Made by a program: the position numbers and the translations under genes. The notes beneath the pieces were generated by a model. That model saw only the letters and a list, made by a program, of their open reading frames with translations, was not told the origin of the DNA and did no database searches. This document shows positions 20,257 through 38,404 of a stretch of DNA of 64,000 nucleotides, in pieces; the first letter of the stretch is position 1; every line of letters begins with the position of its first letter. The stretch is from Pseudomonas sihuiensis (GTDB lineage Bacteria; Pseudomonadota; Gammaproteobacteria; Pseudomonadales; Pseudomonadaceae): contig NZ_LT629797.1 of the NCBI RefSeq assembly GCF_900106015.1, forward strand, positions 1,302,001-1,366,000, read 5' to 3'.

Positions 20257-20523
20257 ATGCTCGATTACTTTGCACTGGGTTTATTGATTTTTGTTGGGTT
20301 GGTACTGTTTTACGGGATAATTGTTATCCATGACATCCCTTGCGAAACTGCCAGGCAGCGTAACCACCCCCATCAGGATTCGATCCATGCCGCCGGCTGG
20401 GTCAATATGTTCACATTGCATCGCCTTTGGCGTCGGGGCCAGGAAGGTGTGTTGGCCGGACGGATACAATATATTCACTGGTCATGGCTATCTCAAATTT
20501 CTGCGGGAACCACTGCTCGATGA
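20257..20523 (+). pseudogene. DUF3302 (YiaW-like) inner-membrane protein gene, broken after codon 55
   Basis: The first 55 codons encode a clear DUF3302 protein: MLDYFALGLLIFVGLVLFYG is a membrane helix, followed by IIVIHDIP and RNHPHQDSIHAAGWVNMFTLH, all diagnostic. The family then has a second Trp-rich membrane helix (IWPFLWIWATLY-like). Here the sequence switches exactly at codon 55 (20419) into a foreign frame (RLWRRGQEGVLAGRI) that belongs to the 49-bp repeat also found at 36890. The second helix is therefore missing and the gene is probably inactive. A GGAAGGAAC ribosome site precedes the start. Insertion or recombination at the repeat is the likely cause. Confidence 0.75.
20419..20467 (+). 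repeat. 49-bp direct repeat, left copy
   Basis: Perfectly identical to 36890-36938, in the same orientation and 16.47 kb apart. It begins CATCGCCTTTGG and ends GGACGGATAC. This copy interrupts the DUF3302 gene. The 11-mer AAAAGTTCGCG occurs 145 bp downstream of this copy and 1 bp downstream of the other, suggesting that longer homology was broken up. Confidence 0.95.
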
Positions 20524-20751
20524 ACTGAAGTTCCTGATCGAGCTCAACGCGAGCAAGCTAAAAACTGCCATGAACTCTACTCGGCTTGACGTAAATCTGG
20601 CTGCCTTGGGCTAAAAGTTCGCGGGATCTCAACAGCTGCTTTGGGCCGGAGGCGGATTGGTGACAAGCATCTATCGCCTAGGTATTGGCTAATGCATTTG
20701 AATTACTGATACTGCCAAACGGCCAGTATAGCTTTAGGGGGAGTCTAAGCG

Positions 20752-23238
20752 ATGGCAAGGAAGCGTAGGCGCAGCAGCAAGTCCGGTGTATCTGGAGTGA
20801 TGGTTCTGGGCGCCATAATGATCGGGCTGCTTGCTTCCATTCCCAAGGGGGTGTGGGTTGTCTTGGTGGGAGTAGCGATTATTGGTATGGGTGGGTGGCT
20901 GATCATCAAGGCCTTCAGCAAACCTCCAGCCGTATCCTCGCCACCGACTAAGCAGCCGCTCCGTCGAAAGGTCGATCATTCGAGCTCTTCTGATGCCCCC
21001 GCGAGCATTGGTCTGACGTTCTCCTTGGACGAGGTTTCGCCCGTAGGTGAGACGTCTGTATCAATTCAAGTCCCGGCCTCACCCCAGCAGCTTTCGGCAA
21101 AGCAGGACAGTTCTGGTTTCTTTACCGTGACACTGGAGGCCGCTCAGCGGTCTTCCCACAAAATTCCGAGTGCGCCGGCGGACCTGGCTGGTGCCAAGGT
21201 GCGCTGGCTTTCCGCTGGCGAACCCATTGAGGTTGCTGGCGAGAAGATCTCTGGCGGCTTGATCTATGTCGGTGAAGATCGAAACAGCCGCTATGGATCT
21301 TCGGAACCCTCACTGATCAACCCGAAGCTGAAGGTCGCACGGGGCATCGTTGATATTGCTGAGCGTCTCACTTCCTACTGGCCCAGTTACGACAACATCA
21401 CCCCTGAGGCTCGGCGCGCATACCTCCAATGGCTATACAGTGGTCGGAAGGCTCCGCATGCCAACATTGGCTACGTGTTCCTGTTCTTCTATGGACTGGA
21501 ACGCAGGGTATTCGTCGACGCGAAGACGAATCAGGCTGCCGCCGCCGAGATACCTAGCATCATTGCTGAGGTCGAAAGACTGCTCTCGATCTACGACGAG
21601 AATCATTCGTTTAATACCTACGCCAGTCGCTTCGTAGACTTCCTCCGTCAAGGCCAAGTGCTTGATCGACGCTATCAAAAGGCGCCGCCGGCACCGTTGT
21701 CTTACGGCTATGAAATGCCCATAGAGCTACGTATTGGCCTGGGCCAGTTGGCTGCTGACAAGCAACCAATGCCGGCTGACTGGGCGTTGGCCTGGGTGCT
21801 GTCTGATCACAACATTGGGAAGCGGACACCTGTAACCCGTTGTAAAGAAGTGTTCGCCCAGTTGTTCTGCATGTGCTACGAGGAACGTTATGGCCCAGGT
21901 ATGGTGCTCCCTCAGAACAAGACTCGTCTGCGACTCCAATACAACACCGCTTCTGCGGGACTACCCCCTCAAGAGCTGGATGGCTTATCCGGTATTCCTG
22001 ATGTCACTGCGACCAGCGCAGCTCGGAAGAAGCTGCAGCAGTTGGTTGACGAATGCACGGTGCAGTTGGAGCCCTACAGTCGTTATCTCGGTCGCAACTC
22101 CAGCACTCCTGATGCACTAGAAGGACTGTTACAGCTGCCTGTAAACCTGTGGCCGCCAACTGCTCGAACAGCGCTCGATGAGCTGAAACAACGCATCGGC
22201 GACGGTATGGTGGTCATGAGCTTCGGTGAGCTGGCAGGGCGACTGCAGAGTGCAGGTAGCCTGTCGCGAGACAAGGTTCTGACGCTCGCCCGCGCGCTGG
22301 AATCATTGCACATCGGTATCGAGCCGGATGTTCTGGCAGGCAGTCGAACACCCAAGGCAGAGGATAATGTGGCGCTCTTTGCGACCCAGGCTGAAGATGG
22401 TGATCTGCGGTCTTCGCCGGCGTATAGTGCAGCCTCTGTTACGTTGGAACTTGCCTGTGCTGTGGCGGCGGCCGATGGTGACACGTCGCCGCAGGAAATT
22501 ATGCTGCTATCCCAGCATATCGACTCTTGGAGTCACCTGAGCGGTGCTCATCGGAAACGCCTGAAGGCGCACCTGCGTCTGCAGCTTAACCAGCCACCAA
22601 CCCTGCAAAGCCTGAAGAAGAAACTGGAGCCCCTGGCCGAGCCGGCGAAGAGGGTTGTGGCGGCTTTTCTCGCTCACTTGGCGCAGGTCGACGGCGAGGT
22701 TAGCCCCGCAGAGGTGAAGTTGCTGGAGCGCGTCTACAAGACCCTGCAGCTGGATCCGCAATCGCTATACAGCGACCTTCATGTGGCCGCCAGTGGTAGC
22801 CCCGTTGGCTCATCGCAGACAACGCCTTCCATACCCGGAGCAACTCCGTCCAAGCCCGTTGGTGGATTTGTTCTGGACCAAGAGCGCATCGCTCAGTTGC
22901 AGCGTGAAACGGAGCAGGTATCCGCGCTGCTGGCTCAGGTTTTCGCTGATGACAAGTCTGTTGATTCGGATGAGGTCGTTGTCGAAGAGACCGTCGAGGA
23001 TACTTCCTCCGTCTGTGGATTGGACGCCGATCACTCAGCCTTCCTGCGTGTACTCGTATCTCGTACCGAGTGGGCTCGCGACGAGTTGGAGGCGGTTGCA
23101 AGCGATATGGAGCTCATGCTCAATGGAGCATTGGAGCAGATCAACGACATGGCCTTCGAGCATTTCGATATGCCAGTCACCGAGGGGGAAGACCCCTTCG
23201 AAATCAACCCTGAAATCATGGACAAACTACCGCTATGA
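20752..23238 (+). CDS. sngA: TerB-domain membrane-anchored protein of a Shango-like defence system (SngA-like)
   Basis: An 828-residue protein. Two N-terminal hydrophobic segments (about 13-30 and 35-50) anchor it. TerB_N follows (WLSAGEPIEVAGEKISGGLIYVGED, then DIAERLTSYWPSYDNITPEARRAYLQWLYSGR), a middle region, a TerB domain at about 560-680 (LACAVAAADGDTSPQEIMLL and HLAQVDGEVSPAEVKLLERVYK, two acidic helical repeats that could bind metal), and a TerB_C end. The order TerB protein, ATPase, DEAD/DEAH helicase is that of the Shango anti-phage system. The stop overlaps the next gene by 4 bases. The start has GGGGGAG upstream. Confidence 0.85.
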   Translation: MARKRRRSSKSGVSGVMVLGAIMIGLLASIPKGVWVVLVGVAIIGMGGWLIIKAFSKPPAVSSPPTKQPLRRKVDHSSSSDAPASIGLTFSLDEVSPVGETSVSIQVPASPQQLSAKQDSSGFFTVTLEAAQRSSHKIPSAPADLAGAKVRWLSAGEPIEVAGEKISGGLIYVGEDRNSRYGSSEPSLINPKLKVARGIVDIAERLTSYWPSYDNITPEARRAYLQWLYSGRKAPHANIGYVFLFFYGLERRVFVDAKTNQAAAAEIPSIIAEVERLLSIYDENHSFNTYASRFVDFLRQGQVLDRRYQKAPPAPLSYGYEMPIELRIGLGQLAADKQPMPADWALAWVLSDHNIGKRTPVTRCKEVFAQLFCMCYEERYGPGMVLPQNKTRLRLQYNTASAGLPPQELDGLSGIPDVTATSAARKKLQQLVDECTVQLEPYSRYLGRNSSTPDALEGLLQLPVNLWPPTARTALDELKQRIGDGMVVMSFGELAGRLQSAGSLSRDKVLTLARALESLHIGIEPDVLAGSRTPKAEDNVALFATQAEDGDLRSSPAYSAASVTLELACAVAAADGDTSPQEIMLLSQHIDSWSHLSGAHRKRLKAHLRLQLNQPPTLQSLKKKLEPLAEPAKRVVAAFLAHLAQVDGEVSPAEVKLLERVYKTLQLDPQSLYSDLHVAASGSPVGSSQTTPSIPGATPSKPVGGFVLDQERIAQLQRETEQVSALLAQVFADDKSVDSDEVVVEETVEDTSSVCGLDADHSAFLRVLVSRTEWARDELEAVASDMELMLNGALEQINDMAFEHFDMPVTEGEDPFEINPEIMDKLPL

Positions 23239-24530
23239 GCAGCATCAGAGCCAAGGACCGCGATGCGGTCATCCAGTCCCTGCGCGCTGGCGTCGTTCCC
23301 CGTGCCGGCCAGCACTTGATTCAGGTGGGGCGTGTCAGTGAGCTGGAGGCGCTCATCCGTGATGTGGAGCGCCTCGCGGAAAGTGGTTCCGCGTTCCGCG
23401 TAGTGATCGGTGAATATGGCGCAGGCAAGACGTTCTTCCTCAACCTGGTTCGCTCTATTGCGATGGAGCGCAAGCTCGTCACCATGCATGCGGATCTGAA
23501 CCCGGATCGTCGTCTCCATGCTACTGGCGGCCAGGCTCGCTCGCTGTATGCCGAATTGGCCAAGAATATGTCCACCCGGACTAAACCTGATGGCGGTGCT
23601 CTGCAAGGAATAGTCGAGAAGTTCATTGCACAGGCCAAGACGGAAGCCAAAGCGTCCGGCAAAGACAGTGAGGCTGTGATTCGTGAGCATCTCGAGCAAC
23701 TGACAGAGATGGTCAACGGCTATGACTTTGCTGATGTAATCGCGGCTTATTGCAAAGGCTTCGAAGAGGGCAACGAGCAGCTCAAGGCGGATGCTATCCG
23801 CTGGTTGCGTGGCGAGTTCACTACCAGGACAGATGCCCGCACCGCACTGGGTGTGCGAACCATCGTCGACGATGCGTCGGTCTACGATCAGCTCAAGTTG
23901 CTCGCGCGATTCGTTCGGTTGGCCGGCTTTAGCGGATTGATGGTATGTCTCGATGAGCTGGTGAACCTGTACAAGCTCTCCAACACCCAAGCTCGCAACG
24001 CTAACTACGAGCAGATTTTGCGTATCCTCAATGACTCCCTGCAGGGTTCCGCTGAGGGGCTTGGTTTTGTGTTGGGTGGTACCCCCGAGTTTCTCATGGA
24101 TGCTCGCCGCGGCCTCTACAGCTATCCGGCTCTGCAGTCGCGTTTGGCGGAAAACAACTTCGCCAAGTCCGGGCTGGTAGATCTTTCCGGTCCTGTCGTA
24201 CGCCTCACCAGCCTGACGCCTGAGGATTTCTACGTGCTGCTGCAGAAACTGCGTCATGTATACGCGGCAGGCGTGAGCGAGCGCTATTTGCTACCCGACG
24301 AAGCATTGCCGCTGTTTATGGCCCACTGTAATCAGCGGATGGGCGAGGCCTACTTCCGGACCCCGCGGACGACCATCACCGCATTCATCAACCTGCTAGC
24401 GGTGCTGGAGCAGAATCCGGGCGCTGATTGGCGAACCCTGCTGGGGGCCGTAGAGATTGCACCGGATCGAGGTGGTGAGACTGATACCCAGGTAGATGCG
24501 GACGATGAGCTTGCCACCTTCCAGCTCTGA
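23235..24530 (+). CDS. sngB: BrxD-like P-loop ATPase of a Shango-like system (SngB-like)
   Basis: A 431-residue AAA-type ATPase of the DUF2791/BrxD group. Walker A is GEYGAGKTFF at about 60-69, Walker B is LMVCLDELVNLYK at about 235-247, and a sensor-like FVLGGTPEFLMD follows near 275. A C-terminal winged-helix-like region ends the protein. BrxD-type ATPases pair with the BrxHI-type helicase in BREX type 2, and the same pair joined to a TerB protein defines Shango. It overlaps sngA by 4 bases and sngC by 26, so the three are translationally coupled. No pglX or pglZ methyltransferase/phosphatase genes are near, arguing against BREX. Confidence 0.85.
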   Translation: MSSIRAKDRDAVIQSLRAGVVPRAGQHLIQVGRVSELEALIRDVERLAESGSAFRVVIGEYGAGKTFFLNLVRSIAMERKLVTMHADLNPDRRLHATGGQARSLYAELAKNMSTRTKPDGGALQGIVEKFIAQAKTEAKASGKDSEAVIREHLEQLTEMVNGYDFADVIAAYCKGFEEGNEQLKADAIRWLRGEFTTRTDARTALGVRTIVDDASVYDQLKLLARFVRLAGFSGLMVCLDELVNLYKLSNTQARNANYEQILRILNDSLQGSAEGLGFVLGGTPEFLMDARRGLYSYPALQSRLAENNFAKSGLVDLSGPVVRLTSLTPEDFYVLLQKLRHVYAAGVSERYLLPDEALPLFMAHCNQRMGEAYFRTPRTTITAFINLLAVLEQNPGADWRTLLGAVEIAPDRGGETDTQVDADDELATFQL

Positions 24531-26724
24531 GTCGGCTGGGTTCGCACTCCTTGAGCCGCGAATCCAGCGCTGGATATGGTCTGAAGGCTGGACCTCCCTA
24601 CGCGATGCCCAGGAGCGCGCTATCCCTGCGCTTTTGGGCGCGGATCAGGATGTCATCATCGCGGCGGCTACAGCTGCAGGGAAAACCGAAGCCGCGTTTC
24701 TACCCATCCTTACCAATCTCCTGCAGGACACGGAAAGGCCTGGGTCGGTGCTTTACATAAGCCCACTAAAGGCTCTCATCAATGACCAGTGGGATCGTTT
24801 GGCGAGACTTTGCGATGAGCTTGAACTTCCAGTCATTGCTTGGCATGGGGATATCTCAGCGAGCCGCAAACATCGCTTCCTCAAGTCCCCGGAAGGCATT
24901 CTGCTGATCACGCCGGAGTCGCTCGAAGCTCTTTTCGTCAACAGGGGGACCAGTCTAGCGGGATTGTTTGCCAACCTACGGTACCTGGTGGTGGATGAGC
25001 TCCATGCCTTTATCGGTAGTGAGCGAGGCAAGCAGCTACAGTCACTCATGCATCGAGTGGAAACAATCCTTGATCGCCCCCTGCCCAGGGTCGGTCTCTC
25101 TGCCACGCTGGGCGACATGACGCTGGCTGCGGCCTTCTTGCGCCCGAATGCCCCCCAGCATGTGTCGGTGATCGAGTCCAAGGGGAGTGGCCAGATACTT
25201 AAGGTTCAGATCAGAGGGTATGTGGAGTCCAAGCAGGCGCTCCCGATGCAGTCTGAAGATGATGAGGTTTTTTCTCCGGACCATGCCATCGCAGAACACC
25301 TCTTTCAGGTACTGCGGGGTAGCAACAACCTGGTCTTCCCCAACAGTCGAACTCAGGTGGAGTGGTTCGCTGACAATCTGCGGCGCCGTTGCGAGCAGGA
25401 TGGTGTACCGAACGAGTTCTGGCCGCATCACGGCAGCTTGGCGAAGGACATTCGAGAGGAAACCGAGAAAGCGCTGAAAGCCGGTGACCGGCCTGCCACT
25501 GCAGTTTGCACTACGACGTTGGAGCTTGGGGTAGATATCGGCAGCATCAAGACGGTGGTGCAGATCGGGGCGCCGCCATCGGTAGCCAGTTTGCGTCAGC
25601 GCTTGGGTCGATCCGGACGTCGCCCGGGAGAAGCAGCCATTCTCCGAAGTTACTGCAAGGAGCGTCAGCTAGACGATGGCTCGCTATTGTCGGATCGACT
25701 CCGCCAGGGCTTGGTGCAAAGCATTGCCATGATCAGGTTGTTGATGCAGGGCTGGTTCGAGCCCCCGCGCGTTCAGGGCCTTCATTTATCGACCTTAGTG
25801 CAGCAGTGTCTCTCAGTGATAGCTCAACGAGGGGGCGCAACAGCTGCGGAGCTTTGGAGCACCTTGATACGAAGTGGTCCGTTCGCAGGGGTGGAGCAGG
25901 GCAGCTTCCTCAGTTTGCTTCGTGCCCTCGGTGAGCGCGATTTGATAACCCAGGAAACATCAGGGCTCCTGCTGCCCGGCGTGGTGGGGGAACGCATGAT
26001 CAACCACTACGACTTCTACAGTGCATTTGTCAGCAATGAAGAGTTCCGCCTGGTATGCGATGGCAAACCACTTGGAGCATTGCCCGTCTCCAGGCCACTA
26101 ACCGTTGATCAGCGCATCATCTTTGCAGGACGGCGCTGGCGGGTCACGAATGTGGACACTGATGCCAAGGTCATCGTCGTGAGATCCGATCCAGGTGGTG
26201 CTCCGCCATCCTTCGATGGGCTAGGAGCCCGTGTACATGATCGGGTTCGGCAAGAGATGAAGGCCGTCTTGTTGGAGACGGACGTCTACCCCTATCTCGA
26301 TGCTACGGCACAGGAACTATTGGCTCAGGCGCGTAGCGCCTTCACGGACCTTGGGCTGGCACATTCGAGCATGACCGAAAGCGGAGGCAAGACTTACCTT
26401 TTCACCTGGCAAGGCGATTGGACGAACGATGCCTTGGCTATCTTGCTGACGTACACCGGACTAGCCAGTGAGAACAGTGGGTTGGTCATTGAGGTTGAGG
26501 GGGATCGGACGTCGCTTGAAAGCAAGCTGCGCGAGATTGCCGAGTGGGATGGTATTGATGAATCCAGTGTTCTGGCGCATGTACAGAATATGGTTCAAGA
26601 GAAATGGGATTGGGTGCTTCCGCCGCCGTTACTCATGCAGTCGTACGCTACGATGCAGCTGGACTTGGGTGGAGCAAAGGCATTGGCATTGGGGCTGGTG
26701 AGCCAGCCCAAGGTGACGGCTTGA
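24505..26724 (+). CDS. sngC: DEAD/DEAH-box (Lhr/BrxHI-like) helicase of a Shango-like system (SngC-like)
   Basis: A 739-residue SF2 helicase. The Q-like motif is WTSLRDAQERAIPALL, Walker A AAATAAGKTEA, motif Ib TPESLEALF, motif II DELHAF (DELH rather than DEAH), motif III SATLGD, motif V TTTLELGVDIG and motif VI QRLGRSGRR, followed by a long C-terminal domain typical of Lhr-like enzymes. ATG at 24505 is preferred; an ATG at 24496 is also possible. It ends a three-gene operon. The protein probably translocates on phage nucleic acid together with the SngB ATPase. No frameshift or missing motif is seen. Confidence 0.87.
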   Translation: MSLPPSSSESAGFALLEPRIQRWIWSEGWTSLRDAQERAIPALLGADQDVIIAAATAAGKTEAAFLPILTNLLQDTERPGSVLYISPLKALINDQWDRLARLCDELELPVIAWHGDISASRKHRFLKSPEGILLITPESLEALFVNRGTSLAGLFANLRYLVVDELHAFIGSERGKQLQSLMHRVETILDRPLPRVGLSATLGDMTLAAAFLRPNAPQHVSVIESKGSGQILKVQIRGYVESKQALPMQSEDDEVFSPDHAIAEHLFQVLRGSNNLVFPNSRTQVEWFADNLRRRCEQDGVPNEFWPHHGSLAKDIREETEKALKAGDRPATAVCTTTLELGVDIGSIKTVVQIGAPPSVASLRQRLGRSGRRPGEAAILRSYCKERQLDDGSLLSDRLRQGLVQSIAMIRLLMQGWFEPPRVQGLHLSTLVQQCLSVIAQRGGATAAELWSTLIRSGPFAGVEQGSFLSLLRALGERDLITQETSGLLLPGVVGERMINHYDFYSAFVSNEEFRLVCDGKPLGALPVSRPLTVDQRIIFAGRRWRVTNVDTDAKVIVVRSDPGGAPPSFDGLGARVHDRVRQEMKAVLLETDVYPYLDATAQELLAQARSAFTDLGLAHSSMTESGGKTYLFTWQGDWTNDALAILLTYTGLASENSGLVIEVEGDRTSLESKLREIAEWDGIDESSVLAHVQNMVQEKWDWVLPPPLLMQSYATMQLDLGGAKALALGLVSQPKVTA

Positions 26725-26754
26725 CGTTTAACTTATTCACGTGATGTCTGCTTC

Positions 26755-26989: not shown

Positions 26990-27667
26990 TCAGATCACGC
27001 GTTTGATGCTGATGTAGTCGCCCTGAGTGCGCAGGGTGACGGTCACCGGTTTGCTAGTGCGATTACGCCAGAACCAACCGTGCTTGCCATCGAATGCGGC
27101 CTCCAAAACACCCGAGTCTTGCGGGGTTGAACGTCCTTTCCCATAGCCGTGGTAGAAGTCGCGCGGCGCGTTGTAAGGATCGCCGTGGGTGTCGTAGTTA
27201 ACGACGCCGCCATTGGCAGTCCAGCTATAGTTCACCTTGGCACCTTGCTTCATTTCCAGCTTCACTTCGGCGCCCTGGTTCGGGCTCAAGGTGATGCTCA
27301 TTTCATGCTGCAGGGCAGCCTGCTCAGGCGCAGCCGGTTGCTCCGGAGCGGGAATGACCTCGGCAGGAGTGGCCGGGGTAGTGGCAGGGGCTGCAGGTGC
27401 TGCGGCGATATTTTCAGCTGGCAGCGGAGTTGGCGTCTGAGCTGCGGCCTCATCGGCGCGGGCCTCTTCAGCCAGCTGGATCTTCACCTCACCCATCTGT
27501 GTGAGACCCAGTGCTCGGCCCACGCCAGTGGGATCGATCGCATACTCCGAAGGCATCACCACGGTAACCAGAAGCACGCAGGCAATGATTGCCGCGATGA
27601 TCGTGGAGCGCAGTAGCTGTGCTGTCGAGGGGAGTTCGTTGAGGGTCGGAAGCTTGGTATTGAACAT
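26990..27667 (-). CDS. Transmembrane anchor protein with Ala/Pro linker and periplasmic beta domain
   Basis: A 225-residue protein. Residues about 20-42 form one membrane helix (IIAAIIACVLLVTVVM). A long Ala/Pro/Glu-rich linker (about 72-120) leads to a compact beta-rich domain (MSITLSPNQGAEVKLEMKQGAKVNYSW, HGDPYNAPRDFYHGYGKG, HGWFWRNRTSKPVTVTLRTQGDY). Proteins of this type are named transmembrane anchor protein and occur next to HupE-like genes; function is not known. It starts 13 bases after the HupE gene stop. The His/Asp/Tyr cluster in the C-terminal domain could bind metal or a small ligand, which is only a suggestion. Confidence 0.7.
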   Translation of the reverse strand: MFNTKLPTLNELPSTAQLLRSTIIAAIIACVLLVTVVMPSEYAIDPTGVGRALGLTQMGEVKIQLAEEARADEAAAQTPTPLPAENIAAAPAAPATTPATPAEVIPAPEQPAAPEQAALQHEMSITLSPNQGAEVKLEMKQGAKVNYSWTANGGVVNYDTHGDPYNAPRDFYHGYGKGRSTPQDSGVLEAAFDGKHGWFWRNRTSKPVTVTLRTQGDYISIKRVI

Positions 27668-27679
27668 AAAAAGAATTCC

Positions 27680-28417
27680 TTACTGAGAGACGATCAGGCC
27701 GGTGATCTGGTAGCCCATGAGCAAGAAACCGGCGCTCATCATGGCAACGTTGGCGGTGTAGGCATGGCGCCAGAAGCTGGCAGTACGTCGCCAGTAGCCC
27801 ATCAGAATGAGAATGCCGCCAAGGGCCAGTAGCTGGCCGATCTCGACACCTACGTTGAAGGCAATCAGGTTGGCGATCAGGCCATCAGGAGAAATCTCGA
27901 ACTCCTGGATCTTGGTGGCCAGACCGAAACCATGAAGCAGGCCGAAGATCAGCGTTGCTGCGCGGGTATCGGGCTGGTACCCAAACCAGCGCTGGAAGGC
28001 GCCGAGGTTATCCAGGGCCTTGTACACGACCGAAAAGCCGATGATCGCGTCGATCACATACGAGCTGATGCTGATGTTGCTAAGCACTCCAAAGAGCAGA
28101 GTGATCGAATGGCCAACTGCGAACAGCGTGACGTACAGCCCTACGTCCTTCAGACGGTAGAGAAAGAAGATCACGCCGAACAGGAACAGCAGATGGTCGT
28201 AGCCGGTGATCATGTGTTTGGCACCCATGTAGATGAAGGGCACCAACATCACGCCGGTACTTTCCTGGATGAAGCCCTTGTCTCCTTCGGGAACTCCGTG
28301 GGCCAGCGCCTCAGGCATGACTGCCATCAGTAGAGCGAGGGTAAGCAAGGGCAGAAAGAGTGATCGACGCAGGCGTGCGATCAGCGCCGTTGCCCTGCTT
28401 AGGGGAAGCGAATTCAT
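27680..28417 (-). CDS. HupE/UreJ-family membrane protein
   Basis: A 245-residue protein with a signal-like N-terminus (ALAHGVPEGDKGF) and about six membrane helices. The family signature is GYDHLLFLFGVIFFLYR near 72-88, with HSITL and GLLHGFGLA further on; the conserved His and Asp in GYDH are thought to bind Ni or Co. HupE/UreJ proteins are secondary permeases for nickel or cobalt. It sits between a His-rich secreted protein and the anchor protein, on the opposite strand from rcnR-rcnA, so metal homeostasis is likely. Direction of transport cannot be read. Confidence 0.8.
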   Translation of the reverse strand: MNSLPLSRATALIARLRRSLFLPLLTLALLMAVMPEALAHGVPEGDKGFIQESTGVMLVPFIYMGAKHMITGYDHLLFLFGVIFFLYRLKDVGLYVTLFAVGHSITLLFGVLSNISISSYVIDAIIGFSVVYKALDNLGAFQRWFGYQPDTRAATLIFGLLHGFGLATKIQEFEISPDGLIANLIAFNVGVEIGQLLALGGILILMGYWRRTASFWRHAYTANVAMMSAGFLLMGYQITGLIVSQ

Positions 28418-28464
28418 AACGATTTCCTAGGCTGTAGTGGTCTGGGGCCGCGAGGCGGCCGGTT

Positions 28465-28806
28465 TCAGAGCACGAACCTAGAGCGTGGTGGCCGTTCGAT
28501 CAGGTAGATCGGCACTTCAGGGACAATTGCCCGCAACGAGCTGGGAGGGGTTTCCCGCTCGGGGCGTGACAGTAGTGTCAACGCCGACCCGAGATAGGGG
28601 ATCTCATGGCTATGGTCAGCTGCATGTTTGTGGCTCGGGAATGCCGGCGCGTCCACGTCATGGGAATGACCATGGGACACAGCGCCAGAGTAATCCCCCG
28701 GTATCAGCGGTGCTTTGATGGCGGCCAGCGAATGCCCTACCCAGGCCAATAGCAAGGCCAGTATCAATGCGATAACGGGTTTCTTCGAGGCACTACGGCG
28801 AGCCAT
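28465..28806 (-). CDS. Small His-rich secreted protein, first gene of the HupE operon
   Basis: A 113-residue protein with a signal peptide (residues 5 to about 27, ALLLAWVGHSLAA) and a mature part with a His cluster (SHGHSHDVDAPAFPSHKHAADHSH at about 41-65). It then has a hydrophobic/Pro-rich end with no Cys. No family is recognised. The His cluster suggests periplasmic Ni or Co binding. ATG at 28806 is used; TTG at 28830 is a possible alternative. It is 47 bases from the HupE gene and divergent from rcnR, sharing its operator region. Confidence 0.65.
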   Translation of the reverse strand: MARRSASKKPVIALILALLLAWVGHSLAAIKAPLIPGDYSGAVSHGHSHDVDAPAFPSHKHAADHSHEIPYLGSALTLLSRPERETPPSSLRAIVPEVPIYLIERPPRSRFVL

Positions 28807-28854
28807 TTTCCTATGTCTTGCAGCTTGCAAAGGACCAACAGGGTCGTTTGACCG

Positions 28855-28873
28855 TATCCCCCCCAGGGGGATA
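28855..28873. promoter_or_regulatory. RcnR/CsoR-type G-tract operator between divergent operons
   Basis: TATCCCCC (28855-28862) and GGGGGATA (28866-28873) form a perfect dyad with a 3-bp centre. G/C-tract dyads of this kind are bound by RcnR-like repressors. It lies 40 bases before rcnR and about 50 before the His-rich/HupE operon, so one site can control both. Confidence 0.8.
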
Positions 28874-28912
28874 GGATGCGAGCGTAAATCATCGAGGCAT
28901 AGGACTCAAGGC

Positions 28913-29206
28913 ATGAGCGATCACGAACACAGCCATGGCCACCGACACCAAAGCCACAGCGATGTCATGAAGCGCCTGAAACGCGCCGAGGGCCATCTGC
29001 GCAGCATCATCACCATGATCGAGGATGGCCGTGAGTGCGTGGATATCGCGCAGCAGCTGCATGCCGTGGAGAAGGCCGTATGCCAGGCCAAGCGCACTCT
29101 GATTCAAGATCACATCGATCACTGCCTGGAGCACACGATGGACGCCCTCGCTACTGGCGAGCGCACCTCCCTTGAAGACTTCAAGCAGATCACGAAGTAC
29201 CTGTAG
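28913..29206 (+). CDS. rcnR: RcnR/CsoR-family metal-sensing repressor
   Basis: A 97-residue helical repressor. The N-terminus is unusually His-rich (MSDHEHSHGHRHQSHSD), then VMKRLKRAEGHLRSIITMIEDGRECVDIAQQLHAVEKAV. The Cys at 42 and the His at 51 and in DHIDHCLEH match the RcnR metal ligands for Ni/Co rather than the Cu ligands of CsoR. It represses rcnA until Ni(II) or Co(II) binds. ATG at 28913 has AGGACTCAAGG upstream. rcnA starts 8 bases after its stop. Confidence 0.9.
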   Translation: MSDHEHSHGHRHQSHSDVMKRLKRAEGHLRSIITMIEDGRECVDIAQQLHAVEKAVCQAKRTLIQDHIDHCLEHTMDALATGERTSLEDFKQITKYL

Positions 29207-29214
29207 GTATCACC

Positions 29215-30336
29215 ATGTCGAGCTTTGCCGAATTGCTGCAGCAGGGTGCGTCTCACGCCTGGCTGTACTTCCCCAGCGCCATCCTCCTAGGGGCATTGCA
29301 TGGCCTGGAGCCAGGCCACTCGAAGACCATGATGGCGGCCTTCATCGTAGCCATCCGCGGCACCGTGAAGCAGGCGGTATTGCTGGGGCTGGCGGCAACC
29401 ATTTCGCACACCGCGGTGGTCTGGCTGGTGGCCATGGGCGGCATGTATCTGGGCCAGAACCTGAATGCTGAAACGACTGAACCCTATTTCCAGCTCGCGT
29501 CCGCCGCGATCATCATCACCATCGCGCTCTGGATGCTGTGGCGAACCTGGCGTGGCGAACAGATGTGGCGTTTCGAAGAAGGTGATCATGCGCATGATCA
29601 CCACCATGACGAGCTTCGCCGAATCGATACCGGACACGGGCGAATCGAACTCTCGATCTTCGAGGAAGGGGTTCCCCCGCGCTGGCGTCTGCGCACTCTG
29701 ACTGGTCACTCTTGGCCAGCAGAAGACGTGAATCTGTCGACGACGCGTCCTGATGGGACAGCTCAGCTGTTCCGCTTTGTGCATCGCGGCGAATACCTGG
29801 AATCGGTCGCGGAAATTCCAGAGCCTCATCAGTTCACCGCGCGTCTGAGCCTTGGCCACGCGGGCCATTCGCACGACTATGACCTCGATTTCCATGAGCA
29901 CGACCACGGCCACAACCATTCCGATCTGCAGGGCCTGGAGCTGTCGCTGGAGGGATACCAGGATGCCCATGAGCGAGCCCACGCCAACGACATCCGCAAC
30001 CGCTTCAATAACCGCAACGTCACTACAGGCCAGATCATCCTGTTCGGCCTTACCGGAGGACTGATCCCCTGTCCTGCCGCGATTACGGTGCTGTTGCTAT
30101 GCCTGCAGGTGAAGGAAGTCGCACTCGGGGCTGTTCTGGTGCTGTGCTTTAGTGTCGGCCTGGCGTTGACGCTGGTATCCGTCGGCGTAGCTGCTGCGGT
30201 GGGCGCTCGCCAGGCCTCCAACCGGTGGCCATGGCTGGGAGCGGTCGCGCGTCGCGCGCCCTACCTCTCGAGCATGCTCATTATTGGGGTCGGTATCTAC
30301 GTCGGTGTTCATGGCTGGATCGGTCTGACCGCCTAA
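29215..30336 (+). CDS. rcnA: Nickel/cobalt efflux permease RcnA
   Basis: A 373-residue NiCoT-type exporter. Membrane helices flank a large central His-rich loop (DHAHDHHHDE at about 122-131 and HEHDHGHNHSD at about 227-237). Family motifs are LGALHGLEPGHSKTMMAAF near 23-41 and GGLIPCPAAITVLLLCL near 282. It exports Ni(II) and Co(II) across the inner membrane under RcnR control. The loop also holds a beta-like insert (PRWRLRTLTGHSWPA, VNLSTTRPDGT), longer than in E. coli RcnA. The next gene begins immediately after its stop. Confidence 0.92.
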   Translation: MSSFAELLQQGASHAWLYFPSAILLGALHGLEPGHSKTMMAAFIVAIRGTVKQAVLLGLAATISHTAVVWLVAMGGMYLGQNLNAETTEPYFQLASAAIIITIALWMLWRTWRGEQMWRFEEGDHAHDHHHDELRRIDTGHGRIELSIFEEGVPPRWRLRTLTGHSWPAEDVNLSTTRPDGTAQLFRFVHRGEYLESVAEIPEPHQFTARLSLGHAGHSHDYDLDFHEHDHGHNHSDLQGLELSLEGYQDAHERAHANDIRNRFNNRNVTTGQIILFGLTGGLIPCPAAITVLLLCLQVKEVALGAVLVLCFSVGLALTLVSVGVAAAVGARQASNRWPWLGAVARRAPYLSSMLIIGVGIYVGVHGWIGLTA

Positions 30337-30777
30337 ATGTGGGAGCTATCAGGCTACCTGGGCCTACTCCTCGCGGCCTTCAGTGCCGCGACTTTGATCC
30401 CCGCACAGTCCGAGGCAGTGCTCACCGGCCTGCTGATAAGTGGCAACTACTCGGTGGTCATGCTGTTGGTGGTGGCTACGGCAGGAAACGTTCTGGGTTC
30501 CGCGCTCAACTGGCTGCTCGGTCTCTACATTGAGCGCTATCGGCACAGACGCTGGTTCCCGGTCAGTGACGACAAGCTGGCCCGCGCGCAGCGGGCCTAC
30601 CACCGCTACGGTCGTTGGTCACTGCTGCTGAGCTGGGTGCCGATCATTGGCGACCCGCTGACCCTGATTGCCGGCGTCATGCGCGAACCCTTTTGGAGCT
30701 TCTTTTTGATCGTGCTGCTGGCCAAGGCTGCTCGATACTTGGTGCTCACCGTGGTGACCCTCGGGATCATGGGGTAA
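30337..30777 (+). CDS. yqaA: YqaA/DedA-like small membrane protein
   Basis: A 146-residue membrane protein of the SNARE-associated/DedA superfamily, YqaA branch. Landmarks are AFSAATLIPAQSEAVLTGLL near 14-33, ATAGNVLGSALNWLLG near 46-61, and the re-entrant motif GRWSLLLSWVPIIGDPLTLIAGVMR near 88-112. It begins at the base after rcnA and overlaps the next start by one base, so it is co-transcribed with rcnA. The function is not defined; DedA relatives flip lipids or affect envelope homeostasis. Confidence 0.85.
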   Translation: MWELSGYLGLLLAAFSAATLIPAQSEAVLTGLLISGNYSVVMLLVVATAGNVLGSALNWLLGLYIERYRHRRWFPVSDDKLARAQRAYHRYGRWSLLLSWVPIIGDPLTLIAGVMREPFWSFFLIVLLAKAARYLVLTVVTLGIMG

Positions 30778-31478
30778 TGCGCTCGACCAGCCTGGATCTC
30801 GTCAAATGGCTCGCCATGCTGACGATGGTCATAGACCACCTGCGCTATCTCTGGCCTGAAGAGACAGCCTGGCTGTTCGTGGTTGGACGCTTCGCCTTCC
30901 CACTGTTCTGCGTGGGTATTGCCGCCAACGTGTCACGTTCACGCCCAGGAGATCTGTACAGCGATAACAACTTTCGCTATCTGCGCTGGCTACTGGCTTT
31001 CAGCCTCATATCCGAGCTGCCGTATCGGGCGTTGTCCGAGATGAGCAATACGCTGAATGTCATGCCGACACTGATGTTGGGGCTCATAGTTGCTTGGAGT
31101 GTCCATCACAGCGATCGTGCAGGCTTGATGCTGGGGCTATTCACGCTGACCGTTGCGACAGTGCTTCATGATCGGCTGATGTACGGCGCGTTTGGAGTCC
31201 TGCTGCCGGCCACCATGGTGTTGGCAGTGCAGCGCCCCGGGGTCACCTGGCTCATACCCGCAGTCTTCAGCGTGTTGGCCAATAGCCGTGACGGTTGGAT
31301 CGGAGCTGGTCCCTTTGGCACCTGGTGGGCCATGGCCACGACCTTTGCGGCTCCGCTGGTTGGCCTGTGGCTATTGCGCCAGAAAATCACCCAACACATA
31401 TGGCCAGTGGGGCGCTGGGGTTACTACTTCTACCCCGGCCATCTAGCGGTGCTGGCGTTGTTTCGTGCGGCTCTCTGA
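30777..31478 (+). CDS. TraX-family membrane protein
   Basis: A 233-residue membrane protein of the TraX family with about seven helices. It begins with the usual LDLVKWLAMLTMVIDHLRYL and contains FVVGRFAFPLFCVGIAAN, LISELPYRAL and the end RWGYYFYPGHLAVLAL. TraX in the F plasmid acetylates pilin; chromosomal members are acyltransferase-like proteins without known substrate. It begins at TAATG, overlapping the yqaA stop, and probably ends the rcnR operon. Nothing here suggests a conjugation function. Confidence 0.82.
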   Translation: MRSTSLDLVKWLAMLTMVIDHLRYLWPEETAWLFVVGRFAFPLFCVGIAANVSRSRPGDLYSDNNFRYLRWLLAFSLISELPYRALSEMSNTLNVMPTLMLGLIVAWSVHHSDRAGLMLGLFTLTVATVLHDRLMYGAFGVLLPATMVLAVQRPGVTWLIPAVFSVLANSRDGWIGAGPFGTWWAMATTFAAPLVGLWLLRQKITQHIWPVGRWGYYFYPGHLAVLALFRAAL

Positions 31479-31577
31479 CCGGTCGATCAAAATCCCCTTG
31501 CTCAATGCAGGCCTTTTGCCATAATCCGGAGCGTGACCTAGATCACATATAAGAGCCAATCGAAACGGAGTTTAAAC

Positions 31578-31712
31578 ATGAAGAAGCTTTCTGCCGCCCT
31601 GATCTCCACCGTGATTGCCCTGTCCTCTGCTGTCGCAGTTGCCCATAGCGGAGGCACCGACTCGAAGGGCTGCCATACCAACCACTCCACGGGCGAGTAC
31701 CACTGCCATTGA
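31578..31712 (+). CDS. YHYH-domain secreted microprotein
   Basis: A 44-residue protein. The signal peptide is residues 1 to about 22 (SSAVAVAHSGG); the mature part is GGTDSKGCHTNHSTGEYHCH, the standard YHYH domain with two Cys and several His that could bind metal. ACGGAG lies 11 bases before the ATG, and a perfect 11-bp hairpin follows the stop. It lies between the Ni/Co and chromate genes. The function of this family is unknown; the mature peptide is only about 22 residues. Confidence 0.85.
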   Translation: MKKLSAALISTVIALSSAVAVAHSGGTDSKGCHTNHSTGEYHCH

Positions 31713-31723
31713 TTTAGGCAGTG

Positions 31724-31749
31724 CTGGCCGCCTCTCGTGAGGCGGCCAG
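31724..31749. terminator. Hairpin terminator after the YHYH gene
   Basis: CTGGCCGCCTC (31724-31734), loop TCGT, GAGGCGGCCAG (31739-31749): a perfect 11-bp stem between convergent genes. There is no T-run, but stability and position suggest a bidirectional terminator. Confidence 0.65.
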
Positions 31750-31759
31750 AACCAGATGG

Positions 31760-32083
31760 CTAGACCAAATCGCACACCGGCTGCTTGGCTTCACGCCAAC
31801 CTGCAAAGCCGTCGACGAGATACCGCGCATCCAGTCCCATTGCCCAGAGAGTAGCGGCACACCCCTGGCTGATCTCATGCCCATGGGCGCAGTAAAGAAT
31901 CACGGGGCGATCCCGTGGCACTTGATCCTTCCAAGAGAAAAGCTGTTCGGGGTCATACCATTTCGCCTCAGCGATCTGTGCTCCGTCAGCGTTGCGTGCG
32001 ATAGCTCGGCGTACATCGAGTAACTCAAAGCAGCGACCTGAAGCCTGCCACTCAGCGAGCTCGCGAATCGATATGCGCTCCAT
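31760..32083 (-). CDS. Rhodanese-like sulfurtransferase, third gene of the chromate operon
   Basis: A 107-residue single-domain rhodanese. The active-site loop is CAHGHEIS with the catalytic Cys at 65, preceded by FELLDVRR and followed by YLVDGFAGWR, all standard. It ends 10 bases short of chrA on the same strand and so belongs with chrB-chrA. Its job may be sulfur transfer or arsenate/thiol chemistry linked to chromate stress, since chromate enters as a sulfate analogue; that link is inference. Confidence 0.85.
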   Translation of the reverse strand: MERISIRELAEWQASGRCFELLDVRRAIARNADGAQIAEAKWYDPEQLFSWKDQVPRDRPVILYCAHGHEISQGCAATLWAMGLDARYLVDGFAGWREAKQPVCDLV

Positions 32084-32092
32084 AACCTCTCC

Positions 32093-33448
32093 CTAACGCA
32101 ACAGGTGGATAGCCAAACCCACAAGAGCACATCCCACCAACACCTGGATGACTCCACGCTTGAAGCGGAAAAGTGCGACTGCGGCACCGACAGCGATCAA
32201 CGCCGAGGGCCAATCGAAGCTGCCAGCAAAACCCTCAGGCCACAGCACGTGATAGCCGAAGAACAGCGCCAGGTTGAGGATGACGCCAACCACCGCAGCA
32301 GTAATGCCGGTCAGCGGCGCGGTGAACTTCAGTTCGTTGTGGGTGGACTCCACCAGCGGCCCGCCGGCGAGGATGAACAAGAACGAGGGCAGGAAGGTAA
32401 ACCAGGTGACGAGGCTGGCTGCTACAGCGCCGGCAAGGAATGCCTGTTCTGGCCCGAAGACCTGATGCACATAGGCACCAACGAAGCCCACGAAGGCCAC
32501 CACCATGATCAGCGGCCCCGGGGTGGTCTCGCCCAGCGCCAGGCCATCGATCATCTGGGTGGGGGTCAGCCAGCCGTAATGGCCTACCGCGCCCTGATAG
32601 ACATACGGCAATACCGCATAGGCGCCGCCGAAGGTGAGTAGAGCAGCCTTGGTGAAGAACCAGCCCATTTGAGTCAGGGTGCCCTCCCAACCATACAGGG
32701 CGGTCAGTAGCCCCATCGGCAAGGCCCACAGCACAGCTCCTACAACGACCAACAGAGCCAAGCGCGACCAGCGGAAGCGCGCATGCGCCGGCGGTGGCGT
32801 GTTGTCGTCGATCAATGCCGGCCCATAGGACTGTTTGGATGCCCCATGCCCACCACCGACGCTGAACTTGTCCGGGGCATAGCGTCCGCCCAGGTAGCCA
32901 ATCATGGCCGCCCCTAGAACGATCAGCGGGAACGGGATATTGAGGGCGAAGATCGCCACGAAGGAGGCAGCAGCGATCGCCCACAACCAGTTGTTTTTCA
33001 GCGCGCGTGAACCGATACGGTGGGCAGCCTGAACAACGATGGCGGTGACGGCGGGTTTGATACCGTAAAACAATCCCGCCACCACCGGCACTTCGCCGAA
33101 AGCGATGTAGACCCAGGACAGGGCGATCAGGATGAACAGTGAGGGCAGCACAAACAGTACGCCGGCGATCACCCCACCCCAAGTGCGATGCATGAGCCAG
33201 CCGATATAGGTGGCCAGTTGCTGAGCCTCCGGGCCTGGCAGGAGCATGCAGTAGTTCAACGCATGCAGGAAACGGCGCTCCGAGATCCAGCGCCGCCGCT
33301 CCACCAGCTCCTGGTGCATGATCGAGATCTGCCCGGCCGGGCCCCCAAAGCTGATGAAACCTAGTTTCAGCCAGAATAAGAATGCTTCAAGTAGACCTAT
33401 GTTCTCTACCTTGTCTTGCTCTGTTGCGTGCATGGCCGTCTCATTCAT
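32093..33448 (-). CDS. chrA: Chromate efflux transporter ChrA
   Basis: A 451-residue CHR-family transporter with two homologous halves. The N-terminal half has FLKLGFISFGGPAGQI-type sequence (LKLGFISFGGPAGQIS at about 26-41), LLPGPEAQQLATYIGW and the C-terminal half FFTKAALLTFGGAYAVLPYV and GLALGETTPGPLIMVVAFVGF. It pumps chromate out using the membrane potential. ATG at 33448 overlaps the chrB stop by 8 bases. A longer start at 33487 is less likely, as it lies inside chrB. Confidence 0.93.
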   Translation of the reverse strand: MNETAMHATEQDKVENIGLLEAFLFWLKLGFISFGGPAGQISIMHQELVERRRWISERRFLHALNYCMLLPGPEAQQLATYIGWLMHRTWGGVIAGVLFVLPSLFILIALSWVYIAFGEVPVVAGLFYGIKPAVTAIVVQAAHRIGSRALKNNWLWAIAAASFVAIFALNIPFPLIVLGAAMIGYLGGRYAPDKFSVGGGHGASKQSYGPALIDDNTPPPAHARFRWSRLALLVVVGAVLWALPMGLLTALYGWEGTLTQMGWFFTKAALLTFGGAYAVLPYVYQGAVGHYGWLTPTQMIDGLALGETTPGPLIMVVAFVGFVGAYVHQVFGPEQAFLAGAVAASLVTWFTFLPSFLFILAGGPLVESTHNELKFTAPLTGITAAVVGVILNLALFFGYHVLWPEGFAGSFDWPSALIAVGAAVALFRFKRGVIQVLVGCALVGLAIHLLR

Positions 33449-34385
33449 CACTTTGTCCTTCCTTGCCGAATGCCGCCAGCAGTCCATCGAAGATGGCGCA
33501 GGCCGCAGCCAATAACTGATCGTCGTTTTCGATGCTGGCTCGCAATCCAGCCAGTACCCGCTCTACACCCGTCGCTTCTGTGGGTTGCGCGCCCCCCACG
33601 TCCAGGTAGTGAACCAGAGCCCCTACGCGCTGAAGCCCTGGCGCCTCCAGCCCGAAGCTGGCCTGCAGGGTTTCGAAGGTGACCTTGGTGCCGACATGGC
33701 TGAACCGGGCGCCATCGAAATCGAACCCAAGTGCTTCCGCTGGGCATGCATCAGGAGAGGGAAGCCAGAGGATGCTGGCACCTGGATCGATGAAGCGGCG
33801 GATCAGCCAGGCGCTGGCCAGACGGTCAACCCAGGGGCGCTGGCGAGTCGCCCAGGTTCGCCCTTGGTAGTCCCGCGGGTCGAGCTGCTCGATGGTTTGC
33901 TCGTGGCTGGTGGGCTCGTCCTTGGACAGCGCGCGGTTGATGGCCACCTCGAGGTCGCGCAGCAGCGCGTCTGCCTGCCGCAGAGGTTCGCCTGGAAAGA
34001 AGTCGATCAACTGGATCTGTGCGAACGACTTGCGCAACTTACGGGCCTGGCGAGCAGTCGCCAGTGCGTTCTCGGGCGTCAGCTGGGCCAGTTGGGGCTC
34101 AACCTCCGAGCGCAACCTGGTGTAGTCGTCGCCACGGTCAAAGAGAGGTATGAAGCGCTCACCCTGGGGATCAGTGACCGGCAGGAGCGACGCCGAGCCA
34201 CCACTATCCAGCACGTCACGCTCGACGGACTCCAGTACCTCACGACTAGCCGAGCCATCCGGCAATAGGTACACGCCGTCGCGAAGAACGGCAGCTCCTG
34301 CACTCTTCAGCGTCCGCCAAGCCCGCATTCGCTCGGCGGCATTTGCCGTAGGCAGTGCCATCACGAGACATAGCCAATTAATCAA
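33441..34385 (-). CDS. chrB: ChrB chromate-resistance regulator
   Basis: A 314-residue ChrB protein: an N-terminal domain (INWLCLVMALPTANAAERMRAWRTLK at the start, split here only for length: regulator part) and a C-terminal ChrB domain (RPWVDRLASAWLIRRFIDPGA, LGFDFDGARFSHVG, VGALVHYLDVGG). ChrB senses chromate and controls chrA. TTG at 34385 gives the usual ChrB start; ATG at 34361 and 34421 are alternatives. It overlaps chrA. Confidence 0.85.
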   Translation of the reverse strand: MINWLCLVMALPTANAAERMRAWRTLKSAGAAVLRDGVYLLPDGSASREVLESVERDVLDSGGSASLLPVTDPQGERFIPLFDRGDDYTRLRSEVEPQLAQLTPENALATARQARKLRKSFAQIQLIDFFPGEPLRQADALLRDLEVAINRALSKDEPTSHEQTIEQLDPRDYQGRTWATRQRPWVDRLASAWLIRRFIDPGASILWLPSPDACPAEALGFDFDGARFSHVGTKVTFETLQASFGLEAPGLQRVGALVHYLDVGGAQPTEATGVERVLAGLRASIENDDQLLAAACAIFDGLLAAFGKEGQSDE

Positions 34386-34499
34386 TGTAGAGATCTCACT
34401 AAATATGTTCGATCTATACATTACTCTGCGATTGCTCTATTTGGAACTGCGAAATGGGTTCTGCAGCGTTAGTAGACTGCTTACCTCCAGGTACCGGCA

Positions 34500-34739
34500 A
34501 AGCGAACTGTCGGTGTGGTGCGAATGACTGTCGGAGGGATGCGAATAGGTGTCGGTGGCGTGCGAATGGCCGCCGGAGGGATGCGAATCGGTGTCGGGGC
34601 GTGCGAATGGCTGTCGGAGGATGCGAATAGGTGTCAACGTGTGCGAAAGGCTGTCGATTTTGAAAAACCGCGTTGTGTCGGTTTTGCGTGCGAATCAGTG
34701 TTGGTTAGGAATGTGAATTAGTGTCGGAACCAATGCGAA
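34500..34739 (+). repeat. Tandem 20-21 bp repeat array before the small integrase
   Basis: The heptamer TGCGAAT (or one-base variants) recurs at 34519, 34540, 34561, 34582, 34602, 34622, 34642, 34689, 34712 and 34733, each followed by a tGTCGG core after three to four bases. The first seven are spaced 20-21 bp, two turns of DNA, always in the same orientation. Candidates are multiple terminal repeats of an IS21-type element or binding sites for the adjacent recombinase. No coding sense is evident on either strand. Confidence 0.9.
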
Positions 34740-34774
34740 TACTCACTTGTCCTCCCACATGTGGAGGACTTGCC

Positions 34775-35395
34775 ATGAACATCTCTGCTACCTGCACCCG
34801 CCGGCCCTGGAACAAAGGAAAGTTGGTCGGACAGAAAACCCCGCTCCGGCTGAGAGATATCTGGGCCATCCGAGTAAGGCTTCAGCTTGCAGAACGAACC
34901 CGGGATCTGGCTTTGTTCGATCTGGCCATCGACAGCAAGCTTCGAGCCTGCGACTTAACCAAGCTCCGTGTATGCGACGTTGCTCATGGCGAGCATGTGT
35001 CATCACGAGCAATGGTTATGCAGCAGAAAACGAAGCGACCAGTGCAGTTCGAAATTACTGAGCAAACACGGTCTGCTCTCGCGGCCTGGATACACCAAGC
35101 CCAGCTCCGTAGCCAGGACTGCCTTTTCCCGAGCAGGCTGCACACCTCAGACCATCTATCCACTCGTCAATACGCTCGTATCGTCAAAGGCTGGATGCAA
35201 GCCATTGGCCTTGATCCGGCCATGTATGGCACTCACACAATGAGACGTACAAAGGCATCACTGATCTATCGCAGGACAAAGAACTTGCGGGCCGTTCAAC
35301 TTCTGCTTGGCCATACGAAGCTGGAGAGCACCGTTCGATATCTTGGGATTGAGGTCGACGACGCCTTGGAAATGGCAGAGCAGACCGAGGTTTGA
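34775..35395 (+). CDS. Small stand-alone tyrosine recombinase
   Basis: A 206-residue phage-integrase-family protein consisting of little more than the catalytic domain. The first Arg is in KLRACDLTKLRV near 56-67, a Lys-containing strand is near 85-92, the HxxR motif is HTMRRT near 152-157, LLGHTKLE gives the third His, and the nucleophile is the Tyr in STVRYLG near 189. It lacks the usual N-terminal arm and core-binding domains. ATG at 34775 with GGAGGA upstream is used; the upstream in-frame region is repeat array. Such genes recur singly in Pseudomonas genomes as island-borne integrases. Confidence 0.88.
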   Translation: MNISATCTRRPWNKGKLVGQKTPLRLRDIWAIRVRLQLAERTRDLALFDLAIDSKLRACDLTKLRVCDVAHGEHVSSRAMVMQQKTKRPVQFEITEQTRSALAAWIHQAQLRSQDCLFPSRLHTSDHLSTRQYARIVKGWMQAIGLDPAMYGTHTMRRTKASLIYRRTKNLRAVQLLLGHTKLESTVRYLGIEVDDALEMAEQTEV

Positions 35396-36863: not shown

Positions 36864-36890
36864 GGTGTCCACTTAAATCAGGTGGACACC
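36864..36890. repeat. Inverted repeat at an IS remnant boundary
   Basis: GGTGTCCAC and GTGGACACC are separated by 9 bases (TTAAATCAG). The repeat abuts the 49-bp direct repeat and lies upstream of the IS66 TnpA remnant, so it may be an element end or a junction of two ends. Confidence 0.6.
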
Positions 36891-36938
36891 ATCGCCTTTG
36901 GCGTCGGGGCCAGGAAGGTGTGTTGGCCGGACGGATAC
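36890..36938 (+). repeat. 49-bp direct repeat, right copy
   Basis: Identical to 20419-20467. Here it follows the IS-type inverted repeat and continues into a short region (to 37135) with no supportable gene; an inverted CTGTCC/GGACAG pair near 37095-37116 suggests further IS debris. Confidence 0.95.
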
Positions 36939-37135
36939 GAAAAGTTCGCGATACGTGGTGGACCACTGAGGGCCACCAGTTGCGGATACGGCCGGGCGAC
37001 CACGCCGGCGATCGGGAGGGATGCATGCTTTATTACGCTGGGTTGAAGAAGATTAAGGACGCCGCAACTCGCCGGCGCACATTGAAGGTTGGTCTGTCCC
37101 GGAACTGGTGGACAGGTAGTTAAGAGCTACTGTCA

Positions 37136-38374: not shown

Positions 38375-38404
38375 GATGCTTACTGAAAACATAGGCAAAA
38401 ACAA

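Follow-up and report, generated by a model that had tools for sequence, protein, structure and literature searches.

The Shango locus

The window, i.e. the whole 64-kb stretch of Pseudomonas sihuiensis DNA analysed here, holds three open frames that follow one another on the plus strand. The first, sngA (20752-23238), encodes a TerB_N/TerB/TerB_C protein of 828 aa, the second, sngB (23235-24530), a BrxC/D-type AAA+ ATPase of 431 aa, and the third, sngC (24496-26724), an SF2 helicase of the SngC/BrxHI kind with 742 aa if the longest start is used. The sngA and sngB frames overlap by 4 nt, those of sngB and sngC by 35 nt with this longest start. Since many of the homologues nearest to SngC are 738-739 aa long, the true start of sngC is probably the fourth codon, which would leave an overlap of 26 nt.

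In a comparison with PADLOC models, a check suggested in a preliminary description of this DNA, all three proteins matched those of Shango best, with 393 bits for SngA, 622 bits for SngB (versus 155 for BrxD) and 980 bits for SngC (versus 434 for BrxHI). Against the NCBI equivalog for BREX BrxD, SngB attains 149 bits and stays below the cut-off of 350. Pfam identifies TerB_N, TerB and TerB_C in SngA, BrxC_BrxD (PF10923, 2.8e-155) in SngB, and DEAD (PF00270) and Helicase_C (PF00271) in SngC, with E-values that exclude chance; a nuclease domain was found by Pfam in none of the three. The TerB protein, ATPase and helicase by which Shango is recognized, a system said to have been reported in Millman 2022, are encoded here in a single operon of overlapping, co-directional genes. 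Because of the best PADLOC models and of the SngB and SngC trees described below, the locus is almost certainly a complete, intact and ordinary member of the known Shango system and not a BREX remnant. The earlier proposal of a complete, overlapping three-gene system of this kind, whose coordinates proved exact, is thereby borne out.

As such, the operon is one more Shango in the Pseudomonadaceae. Counting fragments, weak matches and the genome of the window itself, SngA matches occurred in 37 of 398 genomes of this family; the corresponding numbers were 13 of 398 in a sample of the phylum and 9 of 369 in one of the class. These samples overlap and each includes the window's own genome.

Motifs and conservation of SngB and SngC

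The catalytic motifs had been described as intact, and a motif search agrees for all those sought. In SngB, the Walker A motif GEYGAGKT starts at residue 59 (23409-23432, plus strand, as for all motifs given here) and the Walker B motif LMVCLDE at residue 235 (23937-23957); residues 59-66 as well as D240 and E241 are invariant in 20 sequences. SngC displays the helicase motifs I (AATAAGKT, residue 57, 24664-24687), II (DELH, residue 167, 24994-25005), III (SAT, residue 202, 25099-25107) and VI (QRLGRSGR, residue 368, 25597-25620).

Relative to the window proteins, those of eight other Shango loci are 43-76% identical for SngB, 34-56% for SngC and 26-36% for SngA, and in all eight it is SngB that is best conserved. 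Even between the window bacterium and an archaeon, SngB identity amounts to 57%. The predicted structure of SngB is poor (pLDDT 44).

Separation from BREX

The preliminary description had named a phylogenetic placement among BREX type 2 parts as the outcome that would overturn its Shango assignment. Trees were calculated for two of the proteins, SngB and SngC, each with 20 rows comprising the window, 12 plasmid-borne Shango loci and seven BREX-type sequences, while chromosomal E. coli loci stand outside the trees. In both cases, a branch with 100/100 support, recovered in all of 200 bootstrap trees (100%), separates the 13 Shango rows, including the window, from the seven BREX-type rows; the tree reports flag long branches for Pseudanabaena, Paenibacillus and Deinococcus.

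The gene neighbourhoods were compared in 22 annotated regions, 15 of Shango type and seven of BREX type. Of the 15 Shango-type regions, 14 are annotated with the order TerB_N protein, ATP-binding protein, helicase; in the remaining one, from Moraxella, the first gene is annotated as 'hypothetical' and carries TerB_N and TerB_C. This sngA-sngB-sngC order is kept in Pseudomonadota, Actinomycetota, Bacillota and one archaeon. Among the BREX-type regions, pglZ is annotated in six of seven, the Deinococcus region being the one without it. A query with SngB against 72,556 plasmid records matched 695, of which 656 showed 60-80% identity and 39 less than 60%; the BREX-2 BrxD of Rhodococcus is among the latter with 26% identity to the window SngB. 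The 695 records with an SngB-like ATPase include 452 from Klebsiella and 144 from Salmonella, 545 are predicted to be conjugative, and at least one of the ATPases is a BREX BrxD.

The absence of BREX methyltransferase and phosphatase genes, stated in the preliminary description, applies to the locus and the window and not to the genome. Whole-genome searches gave no PglX or PglZ match inside the window (1.302-1.366 Mb); PglZ matches lie at 1.75 Mb and, weakly, at 3.62 Mb, those of PglX at 1.76 Mb and, weakly, at 3.20 and 3.70 Mb. According to PADLOC models, the type I BREX genes BrxC, PglX (a frame of 1194 aa), PglZ and BrxL are located at approximately 1.751-1.771 Mb of the same 5.48-Mb chromosome, about 430 kb from Shango. 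Its BrxC was recognized by these models, and the only match to PF10923 in the whole genome is sngB. Among the genes of this type I BREX island (L088, L089), AbiEii-like, HEC-05-like and in part BnzA-like genes are found, so that it represents a second defence island.

Genomic context and mobility

The 64-kb window was compared by blastn (E 1e-20, pieces longer than 150 nt) with 29 related Pseudomonas and Stutzerimonas loci with flanks of no more than 10 kb, some of the loci being shorter. All 29 match the cassette stretch or a part of it, with outermost ends at 20672 and 26796. The nearest loci match from about 20680 to 26753 (plus strand) at 87-94% identity and distant ones over shorter parts. 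Outside the cassette, a single 193-nt piece in one locus was the only match above 150 nt. As only the cassette is common to the 29 loci, Shango looks like a compact unit of approximately 6.1 kb that is found in different places. From these alignments, the operon appears to be a horizontally moved cassette.

To the right of the operon (26990-34421) are genes for HupE/UreJ, a metal-sensitive repressor, a nickel/cobalt transporter, a chromate transporter and ChrB, and its left neighbours resemble metal-efflux genes by eye. Two direct repeats of 58 nt (20419-20476 and 36890-36947, 93% identical) bracket Shango and these metal genes; with up to three mismatches allowed in 49 bases, they are the only two copies in the genome. 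Just before sngA, a DUF3302 gene is truncated at the point where the left copy starts. An integrase-like gene on the minus strand (37136-38404, 422 aa), by eye a tyrosine integrase, lies outside the repeat pair; its product gave no Pfam match at E 0.001. The repeats were considered as att sites of an integrated element of 16.5 kb. Yet, scattered insertion remnants fit as well, given that there are only two repeat copies, that the integrase-like gene lies outside the pair and that the DUF3302 gene is cut. An array of imperfect 21/42-nt repeats (34507-34656) directly precedes a small tyrosine recombinase gene (34721-35395, Phage_integrase) and possibly provides binding sites for this recombinase.

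PADLOC detects Gabija-like gajA/gajB genes at the window's left edge (39-1848; 15206-17849 in L090), with 97 bits for a C-terminal piece of GajA and 755 bits for GajB. Neither an Rfam match nor a tRNA was found in the window, and phage records gave a single match, weak and partial, to the helicase region. In another genome (G413, L124 4234-9273), a frame of 1679 aa holds SngA together with pieces of SngB and SngC. It was considered as a fusion variant of Shango and rejected, since SngB and SngC are present as fragments; the locus has probably collapsed.

The predicted N-terminal anchor of SngA

SngA of the window has a basic start followed by two hydrophobic segments, as had been noticed before and is supported by both hydropathy and modelling. 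The predicted transmembrane segments span residues 12-30 (20785-20841; mean hydropathy 2.19 over 19 residues, helix 16-28 in the model) and residues 34-52 (20851-20907; mean hydropathy 2.47, helix 32-55 in the model). After these comes a linker predicted to be disordered (residues 56-141, 20917-21174), with pLDDT below 50 throughout. The body comprises TerB_N (residues 155-361, 21214-21834; PF13208, 7.2e-63), TerB (residues 567-671, 22450-22764; PF05099, 7.4e-11) and TerB_C (residues 704-826, 22861-23229; PF15615, 5.7e-35), all on the plus strand. In line with this, the model shows two N-terminal helices, a disordered stretch and a folded body, at a moderate mean pLDDT of 61.

Among the 120 SngA homologues listed out of 1318, 95 have two segments, four have one and 21 have none; the latter are proteins of 489-740 aa without the N-terminal part. 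At a hydropathy of at least 1.6, a segment upstream of TerB_N is found in 26 of 30 Pseudomonadaceae loci and in 26 of 29 loci of another set. Of the loci without one, L013, L030 and L060 do not contain this stretch of sequence, the linker is interrupted by a stop in L017 and L051, and the Pseudomonadaceae loci L061 and L062 have an open SngA N-terminus that lacks a hydrophobic segment. In these last two, stretches like IGRYARFSR, repeated in L062, take the place of the segment.

Outside this family, with frames read to the furthest start codon, the segment reaches at least 1.6 in 21 of 32 loci and at least 1.9 in 18 of 32, some of which (the enteric ones) are near copies of each other. For comparison, N-terminal stretches of 130 residues, taken from the SngB and SngC of 11 loci and shorter than many SngA N-termini, reached 1.6 in two of 22 cases (both 1.61) and 1.9 in none. 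The 11 loci below 1.6 consist of L067, L068 and L111, with values of 1.52-1.57, of L074, L096 and L108, with fewer than 19 residues upstream of TerB_N, and of L066, L069, L095, L106 and L112; in L069, a segment of 1.74 lies before the first start codon. L070, L073, L075, L116 and L117 were dropped for want of a TerB_N frame, and L077 because it overlaps L074. An anchor recount took 17 of the 30 Pseudomonadaceae loci, leaving out near copies as well as L051 (stop) and L060 (nothing upstream of TerB_N).

The anchors differ between lineages. In Pseudomonas, the anchor is a MARK(R/K) hairpin, and a similar hairpin becomes visible in Aeromonas when the frame is followed upstream beyond the start codon given in the annotation. 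The SngA of Klebsiella, Salmonella and E. coli has a single pass right at the N-terminal start. Followed upstream in the same way, SngA of the archaeon Halocatena carries a TM2 domain (PF05154, 2.5e-17), and in that of Arthrobacter (L099 2585-2897) the segment comes after a DUF4236 domain (PF14020, 7.3e-12). Hence, the hairpin is usual in Pseudomonadaceae as judged from these sequences, while other lineages often have different N-terminal anchors and some have none.

According to the positive-inside rule of membrane topology, positively charged residues flank membrane segments on the cytoplasmic side. The 15 residues after the last SngA segment carry a net positive charge in 30 of 33 non-redundant cases (26 of 33 by a stricter rule) and a net negative charge in L072, L099 and L107, the last being the TM2 case; L064, L093 and L115 have segments and were left out of this count, as no start codon was located before the segment. 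By this rule, the SngA body would be cytoplasmic in most copies. For the window protein, a membrane tether with a cytoplasmic body, as read from hydropathy and model, is quite probable. The comparison suggests that SngA is usually tied to the membrane by lineage-specific anchors. The earlier idea that the complex is placed at the membrane hence gains support from the predicted anchor and from most copies of SngA, and it does not extend to all copies.

In L017 (a Pseudomonas MAG) and L051 (Pseudomonadaceae), the same in-frame stop lies in the linker between anchor and body, with the frame of the body open. Both possibly stem from the same genome or from near relatives, and relatives carry intact sngA copies. 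Several listed P. aeruginosa SngA proteins begin in or after the linker as well, which the choice of start codon or contig ends may explain; here, the proteins alone were compared.

A limited search of the Shango literature, with the sources available in part, brought up no description of the SngA anchor or of the top conservation of SngB. Shango itself is already known, and what seems new here is the comparison of SngA anchors and the conservation of SngB.

Proposed mechanism and alternatives

A 2026 review gives the mechanism of Shango as unknown (PMC12926258). According to work on P. aeruginosa PA14, Shango is anti-phage: it lowers the plating of many phages by a modest 10-100-fold and in liquid culture generally protects strongly (PMC10250203); by analogy to this activity, an anti-phage function is predicted for the window operon. 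SngC, BrxHI, DruE and DpdJ have been described as a potentially distinct clade of antiphage helicases (PMC12278908), and it has been suggested for BREX type 2 that BrxD may load the helicase BrxHI, for which DNA-binding modules are predicted (PMC12839542).

Because of these published data on Shango, BrxD and BrxHI and because of the anatomy of the proteins, we favour a membrane-tethered SngA that acts together with an SngB loader and an SngC helicase, and we infer its topology, complex formation, helicase loading, DNA target and site of defence from the same grounds. SngA would be held at the inner membrane by its N-terminal helical hairpin and flexible linker, with the TerB_N/TerB/TerB_C body in the cytoplasm, and may tether SngB and SngC there. 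SngB, a BrxD-like AAA+ ATPase (of the ORC/Cdc6 type, as published for BrxD), would probably load SngC or switch it on. SngC could then unwind or translocate along phage DNA, be it incoming or replicating, close to the membrane and block the infection. This loader-helicase action on phage DNA is a tentative proposal that falls somewhat short of probable. The explanation as a whole, i.e. a complete, horizontally moved Shango operon with a membrane-tethered SngA, an SngB loader and an SngC helicase on phage DNA, is one towards which we lean.

Alternatively, Shango could act by abortive infection at the membrane, with SngB and SngC sensing phage DNA and the SngA anchor disturbing the membrane or halting growth. 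Both the membrane segments of SngA and the lack of a nuclease domain by Pfam would agree with such a role, but the anchors, being short (hairpins or single passes) and of lineage-specific sequence, look more like a tether than a pore, and some Shango systems show no anchor at all; we therefore regard this mode of action as doubtful. Quite unlikely is an action of SngC on RNA by which phage gene expression or translation would be blocked. SngC also matches SF2 RNA helicases, and a conserved host partner, for instance the ribosome or polymerase, would fit the strong conservation of SngB. Yet, the best two solved-structure matches of SngC (5v9x and 7lhl) are named ATP-dependent DNA helicase, the third is YprA, and the DNA-binding modules predicted for the related BrxHI likewise point to DNA.

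There is also a slim chance that the operon is intact in sequence and nevertheless silent or non-functional in this strain. The sole match to a sigma-70-like consensus lies inside sngA and matches did not exceed those in shuffled sequences, in a scan that covered one promoter type. Against this stand the three intact frames and searched motifs, and also the fact that several other species carry the cassette, together with about 70 bases upstream of it, at a DNA identity of 90-94%. Finally, SngB and SngC could be the BrxD/BrxHI pair of a decayed BREX type 2 locus beside an unrelated TerB gene. The kinship of SngB to BrxD and of SngC to BrxHI is real, but tree and context refute this origin, the probability of which is negligible: both proteins are split from the BREX-type rows at 100/100, the window SngB is far closer to the eight Shango SngB proteins (43-76% identity) than to BREX-2 BrxD (26%), its score lies below the BrxD cut-off, and pglX and pglZ are without a match in the window. 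A BREX remnant was thus ruled out.

Returning to the tethered loader and helicase, the anchor comparison invites a more general reading of Shango as a membrane-tethered defence. Unlike anchors (hairpin, single pass, TM2 domain) would have been joined repeatedly to the same cytoplasmic TerB_N/TerB/TerB_C body, and SngB is the most conserved part. The tether may hence be selected for and yet be interchangeable, a reading that we consider modestly probable. If true, Shango would work from the inner face of the membrane, for instance where phage DNA enters, via a conserved ATPase core. Two handles on the mechanism would be the recurrent tether, whose sequence changes, and the ATPase, which is better conserved than SngA and SngC.

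Comparison with known systems

The Shango systems of PA14 and E. coli contain the same three kinds of genes as the window operon, PA14 being likened here by its published description. The available portions of the PA14 paper describe no membrane anchor, and the sole mention of 'membrane' in the paper concerns another system (PMC10250203). The PADLOC SngA model aligns from residue 123 and leaves the anchor of the window protein out. SngA from three E. coli chromosomes has one segment, as opposed to the hairpin of the window SngA.

Reviews mention a TerB domain, as in Shango, also for Dionysus (PMC12926258) and Bunzi (PMC10952713), which are likened to it by description only. Hachiman (HamAB) is, like Shango, built around an SF2 helicase, which in Hachiman senses DNA damage (PMC12278908). 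However, Hachiman has the HamA nuclease, whereas Shango is without a nuclease domain by Pfam. Closest in its parts is BREX type 2, in which BrxD belongs to the same Pfam family as SngB and BrxHI resembles SngC, ATPase and helicase forming a linked pair in both systems. The two nevertheless occupy separate clades, and instead of the PglX and PglZ of BREX type 2, the Shango ATPase/helicase pair of the window has a TerB protein at its side.
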